From: Candidatus Aenigmatarchaeota archaeon
GTDB lineage: Archaea > Aenigmatarchaeota > Aenigmatarchaeia > GW2011-AR5 > JACRMX01
Length of the DNA stretch: 32,762 bases
Assembly (NCBI GenBank): GCA_018304635.1
Contig: JAGVVW010000008.1
Location: 1 to 32,762, forward strand
Reading direction: 5' to 3'
Shown: in pieces, positions 1 through 23,692 of the stretch
How the letters are laid out: each line of letters opens with the position of its first letter
How positions within the stretch are numbered: the first letter of the stretch is position 1
Notes under the pieces: model-generated
What the model saw: the letters and a program-made list of their open reading frames with translations, nothing else
The model's database searches: none
Told to the model about the DNA's origin: nothing
Program-made: the position numbers and the translations under genes

Positions 1-99
1 TGCAACCCTTTTTGGAGAAATGAAATTTATGCCTACCAAAAAGCGTTGACGGAAAGTATATTATTTTCCTGATTGCAACCCTTTTTGGAGAAATGAAAT
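1..99 (+). repeat. Dispersed palindromic repeat, copy 1 (two direct repeats, 73-bp period)
   Basis: An identical 26-nt motif starting TGCAACCCTTTTTGG lies at 1-26 and 74-99. Within the unit, CTTTTTGG (8-15) pairs with CCAAAAAG (36-43) across a 20-nt loop, followed by a GTTGACG block and an AT-only stretch. Related units recur at 11001, 16689, 23164 (inside a tRNA-Ala intron) and 23446. The stem sequence differs between copies, but pairing is kept. The region between the direct repeats is itself conserved from copy to copy, so it is not a CRISPR spacer. The unit may begin upstream of the window. Confidence 0.8.
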
Positions 100-587
100 G
101 AAAAAGGTGTTGGGAATTTCTCATCTCGCCCATTGCATTCTTTTTTTCTTTTTTAAGTTTTCATGATATATTTTTGTCATGGTATTAACAATGCAGAAAG
201 CTGAAATGTTGTATAGAATAGCTCGGCAGAATGGAAGCCCGGTGTCATATGAATGGTATATTGACTAGAGATATGGAAGGACAGATACTATGAAACACCG
301 TAAGAGAGATGAAATGATTGAAAGGTGGCCTTGGATATTTGATTATCAGTGCTTAAATGCGCACTAATGTTTGAATTATTAGTTCACAAATGAGAACTTT
401 GATTAACCTCTGAATTTTGTTTCTTTGACATCTGAAAAATTTTTGCTGTCATAATTTTTTCTACTTTCCCTTCGGTATTAGGTGGAAAGAGAAAAAAACC
501 TGCACATAGAAAACATGGGAAATATCCAAAAGGAGTTTTTCAAAGCCCTCAAATATAGTTGATCTTGTAAAATAAAAATAAAAAGAA
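100..587. other. Gene-poor stretch with gene fragments
   Basis: No convincing full gene. Short open stretches look like remnants: a 29-codon plus-strand frame at 179-268 and a 25-codon frame at 290-367 preceded by GGAAGGA. There is also a basic stretch ending at about 558 (GGKRKKPAHRKHGKY...) with no start codon. At 122-134, CTCAT-CTCGCCC-A reads like the 3' end of a tRNA (T-stem, acceptor strand, A73). It is followed by TTGCATTCTTTTTTT, the same context that follows the tRNA-Ala at 23445. This is suggestive only, since any 5' part would lie outside the window. Confidence 0.35.
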
Positions 588-734
588 TCCAAGGCTGGAC
601 CAACGCGCATAGTTTAAGACTATGTATCTATCCAAGATACGGGGGTTCAAAACAACCTTTTTTTGAGACTGTAGATTTATCTCCACGAAAAATATATTAG
701 TCTCGATGGAAGGGAAAATCCCTCTCCCGGCGCT
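588..734 (+). tRNA. tRNA-Leu(UAA)-like gene, 5' end missing, T-loop interrupted
   Basis: A perfect anticodon arm CATAG-TTTAAGA-CTATG (anticodon UAA) is followed by a class II variable arm TATCT/AGATA and T-stem GGGGG plus TTCAAA. The T-loop is then interrupted. The 3' side resumes as T-CCCTC-TCCCGGC at 719-731, giving a 7-nt loop TTCAAAT if 652-718 (67 nt) is removed at position 59/60. The insert folds: 656-670 pairs with 699-713 in 14 of 15 positions, counting G-U pairs. No 5' acceptor strand complementary to the 3' strand is present, the D-arm is poor, and no reading of the 3' end gives the A73 expected for Leu. It is therefore either a decayed tRNA, a partial copy left by integration, or the 3' piece of a split tRNA. 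The insert starts CAACCTTTTT and carries ACGAAAAATATATTA like the dispersed repeat. Confidence 0.6.
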
Positions 735-11000: not shown

Positions 11001-11090
11001 GCAACCTTTTTGCAAGACTTATGAACTAATCTATGCAAAAACGTTGACGAAAATATATTATTTTTCTCAGCAACCTTTTTGCAAGATTTT
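11001..11090 (+). repeat. Dispersed palindromic repeat, copy 2
   Basis: GCAACCTTTTTGCAAGA occurs at 11001 and again at 11070 (69-bp period). TTTTTGCA (11007-11014) pairs with TGCAAAAA (11034-11041) across 19 nt, and then ACGTTGACGAAAATATATTA follows. Compared with copy 1, both stem strands have changed together (GG/CC to GCA/TGC), which supports a selected hairpin. Confidence 0.8.
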
Positions 11091-11135
11091 CGAAATATTG
11101 TCAGAGATTCCGGAAAAATAGAAAACAAAAAAATT

Positions 11136-16686: not shown

Positions 16687-16688
16687 AA

Positions 16689-16885
16689 TAACCCTTCTTG
16701 GAGAATTAAAATTTAAAACTACCAAAAGCGTTAATGGAAAAAATATTATTTTCTTTAGTAACCCTTTTTGGAGAATTAAAATTTAAAGCTACCAACAGCC
16801 TTTTTGGAGAATAGTGTTGTTGAACTCTATGACTTTGCATCTACCAAAAACCCCGGGGAAAAATATATCTAAATAAAATATAAAA
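16689..16885 (+). repeat. Dispersed palindromic repeat, copy 3 (three successive units)
   Basis: Units begin at 16689, 16759 and 16798. The first two share AACCCTTYTTGGAGAATTAAAATTTAAA and CTACCAA; in the third, TTTTTGG (16801-16807) pairs with CCAAAAA (16844-16850). Stems in the first two are eroded. The GTTGACG block is altered to GTTAATGG in unit 1 and CCCCGGGG in unit 3. The left edge abuts the start codon of the methyltransferase gene. About 70 further nt to 16957 hold nothing recognisable. Confidence 0.75.
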
Positions 16886-23104: not shown

Positions 23105-23163
23105 CTATTAGATAAAATAAACCAATGGGCTGGTAGATCAACTGGAAGATCGCTTCCATGGCA

Positions 23164-23293
23164 CAACCTTTTTGAAGAATTGAAATCTGCATCTATCAAA
23201 AACGTTGACGAAAAATATTATAGATGAAGAAAAAAGCATGTATGGAAAAAAGAACAGTTGCAATCCTTTGATTTGTATATTAAAAATCCAGAA
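23164..23293 (+). other. tRNA-Ala intron 1 (37/38), made of the dispersed repeat (copy 4)
   Basis: The intron starts CAACCTTTTTGAAGAATTGA. TTTTTGA (23169-23175) pairs with TCAAAAA (23196-23202), followed by CGTTGACGAAAAATATTA; a decayed second start GTTGCAATCCTTTGA lies at 23258. This is the dispersed repeat with another co-varied stem. Junction structure: exon TGG (23159-23161) pairs with intron CCA (23288-23290), bulge CAC (23162-23164) is cut after A, and bulge AAT (23292-23294) is cut after the second A. Confidence 0.85.
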
Positions 23294-23315
23294 TGGAAGA
23301 GGCTGCGAGTTCAAG

Positions 23316-23431
23316 CTAACCTTTCTTTTCAAACGAAAGACGCATCTTCGATGCGTCAAGTCGTTAAAGAAAGCTTAAGGTCACCAAAGAAAGACATCTG
23401 GCTTTGCATATAAAATGAAAGGCTATGAAAA
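23316..23431 (+). other. tRNA-Ala intron 2 (59/60, T-loop)
   Basis: Exon TTCA (23310-23313) pairs perfectly with intron TGAA (23426-23429). The 3-nt bulges AGC (23314-23316) and AAT (23430-23432) hold the cut sites. An inner helix TAACCTTTC (23317-23325) pairs with GAAAGGCTA (23417-23425) with one mismatch. Inside is a perfect hairpin GACGCATC/GATGCGTC (23339-23357). This is a textbook bulge-helix-bulge at a non-canonical site. Confidence 0.85.
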
Positions 23432-23445
23432 TCTCGTCCAGTCCA

Positions 23446-23550
23446 TTGCATCTTTTTCAAGAATTAAAATATATGTCTATGAAAAACGTGCACGAAAAAT
23501 ATTATTTTTATCAGACACCTTTTTCAAGAATTAAAATATATGTCTATTGT
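23446..23550 (+). repeat. Dispersed palindromic repeat, copy 5, abutting tRNA-Ala 3' end
   Basis: TTGCATCTTTTTCAAGAATT begins one base after A73. TTTTTCA (23453-23459) pairs with TGAAAAA (23480-23486), then CGTGCACGAAAAATATTATT follows. The second direct repeat starts near 23515 (67-bp period). The stem bases differ again from other copies, yet stay paired. The rest of the gap to 23692 holds nothing else I can name. Confidence 0.8.
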
Positions 23551-23692
23551 TGTTTTATCTTCCATGATTTCAATATTTTCATAAAATAATAGTGTAAATA
23601 AAGTATAAAAAATCCATATGCCACCCGCATTCGACAAATTTTCATTTTTCATCTAAATCACCCACTGTTACGACAGAGAAATACAAATTAAT

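Follow-up and report, generated by a model that had tools for sequence, protein, structure and literature searches.

A short hairpin repeat shared by introns of structural RNA genes and intergenic DNA in an Aenigmatarchaeota genome

Results

The tRNA-Ala(GGC) intron carries a copy of a dispersed repeat

A hairpin repeat of ~62 nt, detected with a covariance model, is present in about 60 copies in the 1.08-Mb MAG of an Aenigmatarchaeota archaeon (88% complete and fragmented), and its copies lie both within introns of structural RNA genes and between genes. The relatives of FtsZ from this MAG place it within Aenigmatarchaeota. Taken together, the data are best explained, and we think likely so, by a mobile hairpin repeat that can be removed as a bulge-helix-bulge (BHB) intron, that originated in introns and that underwent a recent burst into intergenic DNA. 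Our analysis centers on a stretch of 32,762 nucleotides, referred to here as the window, for which the original prediction held that the anticodon-loop intron at 23164-23293 is a copy of a repeat dispersed between genes. Both a repeat finder and a covariance model (R1) built from seven copies assign the intron and the dispersed copies to the same family, in agreement with that proposal. The 130-nt sequence is the exact intron between A37 and T38 of tRNA-Ala(GGC), in a gene that is interrupted twice:

23127..23163, plus strand: tRNA-Ala(GGC) exon 1 (100% match to the spliced query; ARAGORN on spliced exons)
23164..23293, plus strand: tRNA-Ala intron 1, position 37/38, anticodon loop, with an element copy at its start (R1 match; exon match; ARAGORN splice)
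23163..23225, plus strand: element copy within intron 1, hairpin and purine tail (R1 71.2 bits, E 2e-11)
23294..23315, plus strand: tRNA-Ala exon 2 (spliced-query match; ARAGORN)
23316..23431, plus strand: tRNA-Ala intron 2, position 59/60, T-loop, 116 nt, canonical BHB (TTCA/TGAA, 4/4 pairs)
23432..23445, plus strand: tRNA-Ala exon 3 (ARAGORN; T-loop junction analysis)
23447..23509, plus strand: element copy immediately 3' of tRNA-Ala (R1 70.8 bits)
about 23515-23555, plus strand: 3'-truncated copy after the 23447 element (repeat finder)

As anticipated, intron 1 opens with CAACCTTTTTG, and its first 62 nt are a copy of the repeat, with a hairpin of the form CAAC-C-TTTTTGA...TCAAAAA-C-GTTG that is followed by ACGAAAAATATTA, and with the shared block CGTTGACGAAAAATATTA also present. 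Intron 2 differs in sequence from the element-bearing intron 1. ARAGORN accepts the spliced tRNA-Ala(GGC) as a 73-mer, and the BHB of the anticodon-loop intron, read by eye, is imperfect, with 3/4 pairs in the central helix and a poor inner helix. At default settings neither ARAGORN nor Rfam reports a tRNA within the window, because introns break the T-arm of the tRNAs located there. Orthologues differ in this intron: tRNA-Ala(GGC) is intron-free in three relatives (G026, with 89% identity, G058 and G037), and carries introns of unrelated sequence in three others (G028, G016 and G015); in several relatives the intron lies at 37/38.

Within the window, the repeat finder groups the sequences at 23164, 23448, 16690, 16760, 4 and 654 into one family. 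R1 scores the copies at 2-66 (85 bits), 16688-16751 (79), 11001-11063 (76), 23163-23225 (71) and 23447-23509 (71), with E-values of 1e-11 to 1e-14 in the genome search, all five being among the seven copies from which R1 was built. Additional features in the window are:

1..118, plus strand: 3' part of a tRNA-Ile(GAT) T-loop intron, with element 2-66, partial copy 74-99 and closing strand (R1; flank reading; ARAGORN)
119..132, plus strand: tRNA-Ile(GAT) 3' exon (ARAGORN)
652..718, plus strand: T-loop intron of 67 nt, consisting of a degenerate copy of the element, in a type-II tRNA-like gene that is incomplete (repeat finder; R1 E 1.5)
11001..11063, plus strand: intergenic element copy, with a truncated second copy at 11070-11097 (R1)
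16688..16751, plus strand: intergenic element copy touching the start codon of a minus-strand gene (R1; flank reading)
16758..16821, plus strand: second element copy of the 16688 array, partly degenerate (38.4 bits, E 1.8e-4)

Intergenic copies had been proposed at positions 1, 11001, 16689 and 23446. The last three are intergenic, but the first resides in the T-loop intron of tRNA-Ile(GAT), the 5' part of which is found on another contig (C31), and represents the 3' end of a tandem array. At most dispersed sites, a complete unit precedes a second copy that has the sequence peculiar to that locus but is truncated at its 3' end (1/74, 11001/11070, 16688/16758 and 23447/23515). The tRNA-like sequence at 596-732 of the window comprises a type-II 3' part with an anticodon-like TAA, discriminator G and a T-loop intron, with no recognisable 5' half upstream, and it could represent a pseudogene or one half of a split tRNA.

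Genomic contexts of the copies

Across the genome, R1 recovers about 33 copies at E <1e-5 and about 50 with E <0.006, including ~45 further copies outside its training set at E <0.005. The final tally of about 60 copies comprises 27 in introns of structural RNA genes, 33 in intergenic DNA and none clearly within a protein gene. Contexts were read from the flanks of all copies, in stretches around the matches, with several assigned by eye; an earlier count of 26 and 34 changed when the copy at C8:9995 was reassigned to a tRNA D-loop intron. Because the exons of such genes account for only ~1% of the genome by our own estimate, the share of copies in structural RNA genes is far above a random spread. 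Two near-identical two-element arrays at contig ends of this genome (C3:44899-45034 and C44:159-294) possibly reflect strain variation within the MAG.

Element-bearing introns are found in the T-loop (Ile(GAT), Ile(UAU), Thr(CGT), Gly(CCC), Ser(GCT), Leu(CAA) and others), in the D-loop (Leu(UAG), Leu(CAA) and Ile(GAT)) and in the anticodon loop (Ala(GGC), Ile(GAT) and Asn(GTT)) of tRNA genes. Going beyond the original prediction, the family also extends to 23S, 16S and SRP RNA genes: in this genome, the 23S rRNA carries a copy within 137 nt that are extra relative to the LSU model, and the SRP RNA gene contains an intron with an element copy. The Thr intron is made up of two full units and one partial unit, whereas the 51-nt intron of a probable tRNA-Pro on contig C47 is a single unit. 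Copies are also inverted (23S rRNA, the Leu(CAA) T-loop, Asn(GTT) and tRNA introns on contigs C5, C6 and C28), nested (on the same three contigs) or arranged in tandem. Some of these loci are unusual in other respects. A tRNA-Ile gene with anticodon UAU has three introns (C30:1603-2667); a second Ser-like type-II tRNA of odd identity, with anticodon GTC (Asp), sits beside a three-intron tRNA-Ser(UGA) gene (C11:7437-7620); and at the left end of contig C45, the 3' end of a TnpB-like gene lies beside tRNA-Leu(UAA) and an element array.

Several intergenic copies begin 0-4 nt from a stop codon on the same strand, and others touch the start codons of genes on the opposite strand. Reading the flanks of the copies revealed inverted arms and no clear target-site duplication, and insertion points have no common flanking motif beyond the TTCAA of the T-loop and gene edges. 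At C37:12000-12700, a short-loop unit and an element copy are located roughly 50-200 bp upstream of the start of the single splicing endonuclease gene, an arrangement through which the element might exert feedback on endA.

On sequence grounds, intron and intergenic copies are one family. The top intron-intergenic pairs, from three subfamilies, are 93, 91 and 87% identical, loop bases that are free of pairing constraint included, and near-identity of unpaired loops at distant loci points to recent copying. On a tree of the copies, the intron/intergenic label changes 15 times, compared with 19.0 for shuffled labels and 1 for a single split.

The element encodes nothing and has no gene of its own, as had been proposed in describing it as a mobile element without an encoded enzyme; its movement is putative. 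The reverse transcriptase domain RVT_1 is absent from this 88% complete genome, no transposase or integrase could be tied to the repeat, and no intact Y1 transposase was found; the only Y1_Tnp match is a truncated TnpA remnant on contig C7, with ends unlike those of the element.

A covarying hairpin with a candidate third strand

The 5' arm of the element, xAACCYTTTT, pairs with the internal strand AAAAGCGTTx around a conserved C.C mismatch, and a purine tail (ACGGAAAA...) comes after the hairpin. This hairpin is a genuine structure. Of the cells in the model alignment, 95.1% are paired, and double changes are seen in 10 of 14 pairs, with a covariation score of 0.417 compared with 0.128 for shuffled and at most 0.09 for slid strands, numbers that are biased upward by an alignment fitted to the model. 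Inner-stem variants include TTTTTGCA/TGCAAAAA, CTTTTTGG/CCAAAAAG, TTTTTTCG/CGAAAAAA and TTTTTCA/TGAAAAA, and outer-stem variants include CAAC/GTTG, TAAC/GTTA, AAAC/GTTT, GAG/CTC, AAG/CTT and GCA/TGC. The 3' outer stem is spanned by a nearly palindromic 8-mer (CGTTAACG, CGTGCACG, CCCTCGGG) that is retained while both of its halves vary (A5/A6 alignments).

Where the 5' arm is a pyrimidine run with an internal C, the purine tail is its parallel complement; for example, an arm of C-TTT-C-TTTTT-G is accompanied by a tail of G-AAA-G-AAAAA-C. Arm and tail match at 259 of 280 positions, versus 229 +- 4 with tails exchanged (0/5000), a permutation count that is not a clean probability given that the copies are related, and a reverse-order control has no significant excess. 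In 22 of 25 distinct cases, as many A residues precede the G as T residues precede the C. A direct repeat of the form G-A(n)-G, present in both the 3' arm and the tail, may still be a simpler source of this equality; however, the C-T-C arms of the Gly and Ser-UGA introns and the G-to-C ends of the Pro-like and Leu-CAA introns favor a mirror over direct repetition. Long-loop copies offer about 6-7 triplets, against an expected stem of ~7 or more, and in 29 loci from distant genera the signal past the fixed TTTT/AAAA is borderline, with p 0.015-0.06 when the first 1-4 positions are considered. A firm claim for a third strand is therefore limited to copies in which the arm contains an internal C. 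The layout of the tail is that of a purine-motif intrastrand triplex, which the element would be predicted to form. According to Semerad and Maher 1994, as cited in PMC4666352, RNA strands cannot take part in purine-motif triplexes, which would suggest that the element has a role as DNA.

Predicted removal by the bulge-helix-bulge endonuclease

Unspliced, the loci yield no tRNA in ARAGORN, and nine reconstructions were accepted once spliced. Only 8 tRNA matches at E <= 0.001 are obtained in this genome, versus up to 40 in relatives, because the element introns leave few intact tRNAs for tRNA finders to recover. For 15 T-loop introns at the 59/60 junction, the BHB central helix TTCA/TGAA forms 47 of 60 pairs, compared with 24.4 +- 3.6 for shuffled introns (0/5000); the central helix is perfect in 5 of the 15, the inner helix mostly reaches 7-8 of 10 pairs, and the fit is poor for Leu-UAA, the Ser-like gene on C11 and the intron at 652-718. 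The inner helix is composed of the 5' arm of the element and the 3' end of the intron, and several of these 3' ends are the arm of an inverted copy. A 16S intron of relative G045, read by eye, has a canonical BHB. The genome has a single EndA gene (one PF01974 match of 94.9 bits in a 187-aa frame). The intron copies are thus very probably removed by the bulge-helix-bulge endonuclease, which is how the original prediction explained survival of the element in a tRNA, and we infer that splicing takes place in vivo.

Rfam gives no match to group I or group II introns, either in the window or at the element loci, where the introns measure 50-180 nt; identity as either type was rejected, as a ribozyme core has no Rfam support.

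Distribution across the phylum

Among 59 relatives, R1 gives more than 3 matches in the present genome only, and identical models find about 60 copies here versus 0-4 in relatives. A core pattern, CCTTTT-N(6-36)-AAAAGCGTTNACGGAAAA, is more widespread, with about 77 matches among 156 genomes from the phylum, 32 of which carry it, compared with 0 for the reversed pattern. Of 31 core loci (30 from genomes and one from a viral contig), 11 yield a tRNA when simply spliced, compared with 4 of 118 control windows, and two more (L180 and L181) do so when an anticodon-loop intron is allowed. Two core loci are in 16S rRNA, and by eye about 26 of the 31 are in tRNA genes and three are intergenic. Relative G045 has 16S rRNA introns with the core motif, and G016 has an SRP RNA intron with it. 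In viral contigs, the core was found in one of 2.9 million, adjoining a tRNA.

Since tRNA and 16S genes hold most occurrences of the core motif across the phylum, introns appear to be the old home of the element and the intergenic burst an event of one lineage; the ancestral form in the phylum is probably the intron. The original prediction had offered two alternatives, that tRNA introns spawn intergenic copies or that a small palindromic element invaded a tRNA. The data favor introns as the ancestral home, with a recent intergenic burst and re-invasion in this lineage.

At L186 1480-1680 and L185 1480-1600, a tRNA gene is immediately preceded by a repeat of its own 15-nt 5' end joined to an element, with an inverted copy of that tRNA end closing the unit (two such units in tandem in G045), as if the tRNA 5' end had been duplicated by the element.

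Discussion

The origin and movement of archaeal tRNA introns are a long-standing question. The family described here appears to be an intron family caught in the act, with intergenic, arrayed, nested and inverted copies, four kinds of structural RNA gene as hosts, and a lineage-specific burst on a phylum-wide background. Under the explanation that we prefer, the element is a non-coding hairpin repeat that would be mobile at the DNA level, with the hairpin and third strand serving as the putative signal for the spread of copies, by a route that may be replication-linked or may depend on an enzyme acting in trans. In its intron form, the 5' arm would also pair with the 3' end of the intron to create the BHB inner helix, leading to removal by the host endonuclease. 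Since the same fold would also make the BHB, insertions in RNA genes could survive, and since the hairpin is nearly palindromic, splicing should be workable in either orientation. Introns would have come first, followed in this lineage by the intergenic burst and by re-invasion, as suggested by nested, inverted and tandem copies. More tentatively, and less probably than not, the element may be an archaeal introner, in which hairpin-triplex DNA drives spread and the same fold gives a BHB intron that can be spliced either way in tRNA, rRNA and SRP RNA. The element sequences lend themselves to tests of splicing in both orientations and of triplex-driven copying.

A different reading is that the hairpin and A-rich tail are a shared functional RNA, a binding or stability element of introns and 3' untranslated regions that was spread by selection and recombination. 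In both settings, different genera keep the structure and tail, a number of intergenic copies begin within 0-4 nt of a same-strand stop codon and copies lie just upstream of the EndA gene, all of which would fit; however, copies also touch opposite-strand start codons and are inverted, nested or tandem, and the near-identical unpaired loops of distant loci argue for recent copying. We regard a functional RNA as unlikely.

Spread at the RNA level, in which spliced and often circular introns are reverse-transcribed or reverse-spliced and then integrated so that tRNA introns give rise to intergenic copies, would account for the many loci at which tandem units share a locus-specific sequence and the last of them is truncated at its 3' end, since full-plus-partial arrays are what more than one round of copying a circle would leave, and it suits a core motif that is mainly intronic across the phylum. 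Nevertheless, this genome lacks RVT_1, and the closing strand that ends many introns is missing from intergenic copies, which are therefore not simply excised introns. This route seems improbable to us.

We also give little credence to the element being a non-autonomous relative of IS200/IS605, similar to REP or PATE sequences, whose hairpin would be the substrate of a Y1 single-strand transposase that moves it. The imperfect hairpin with a conserved mismatch, the small size and the intergenic insertions are reminiscent of such elements, and IS remnants do exist in the genome (the TnpA fragment on C7 and the TnpB-like end on C45), but the remnant IS ends (CACCACTTTAGTGGTG-type) are unlike the element, no intact Y1 transposase was found in the genome and insertion points show no conserved flanking tetranucleotide. 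Membership in the IS200/IS605-derived REP/PATE families was rejected, with only a truncated TnpA with dissimilar ends to be found. Finally, it is scarcely credible that U-rich tRNA introns of AT-rich genomes converged on similar hairpins by coincidence: the motif is rich in A/T runs, but the reversed pattern has no matches against about 77, the GCGTTNACGG core is conserved, covariation is far over that of shuffles, and identity reaches 91-93%, loops included.

Returning to the preferred explanation of a mobile, BHB-removable hairpin repeat, its parts have parallels in several known systems. The original prediction knew of no described system of intron-like mobile elements without an encoded enzyme, a view that is not supported in that form: in Thermoproteales, similar introns have spread among different tRNA genes (Fujishima 2010, as cited in PMC4090602 and PMC4033280). 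As there, similar introns occur here in non-homologous tRNA genes and are missing from orthologues. The present element differs from the introns described there in being dispersed between genes as well, in either orientation and as tandem arrays, in keeping a structured core across a DPANN phylum and in occupying 16S, 23S and SRP RNA genes. An interspersed, structured, multi-target intron repeat of this kind was not found in the literature searched.

The bacterial PIT, BoxC and TMECO repeats are intrastrand-triplex repeats, dispersed in intergenic DNA, with copy numbers that differ strongly between related genomes (PMC4666352; Hoyne 2000). The element shares with them the Y-loop-R-loop-R' architecture, intergenic dispersal and uneven copy numbers, but it is A/T-rich and archaeal, has an extra covarying outer stem and a C.C mismatch, and occurs in introns, and its triplex is a predicted one. 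In Caldiarchaeum, a 1.8-kb insertion encoding a recombinase recombines at a tRNA, with intron gain (PMC3293823). There too, gain of a tRNA intron is tied to a mobile element; here, however, the ~60-nt non-coding repeat is itself the intron. With archaeal BHB introns in general, the element has in common 3-nt bulges and a 4-bp helix at the exon-intron borders, clear in the T-loop introns and weak in the Ala anticodon-loop intron, a host with a splicing endonuclease and restoration of the tRNA on predicted removal.

Eukaryotic introners are short repeats, non-autonomous, that give rise to large numbers of introns within a single lineage and whose insertions are tolerated because they are spliced; their hallmarks are inverted ends and target-site duplication, with a transposase supplied in trans. 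The element is likewise short, non-autonomous and intron-making, with a burst in one lineage, but it would be spliced by a BHB protein endonuclease and not by the spliceosome, and its targets are structural RNA genes. By this analogy, it appears to be the archaeal equivalent of those eukaryotic transposons that make introns.
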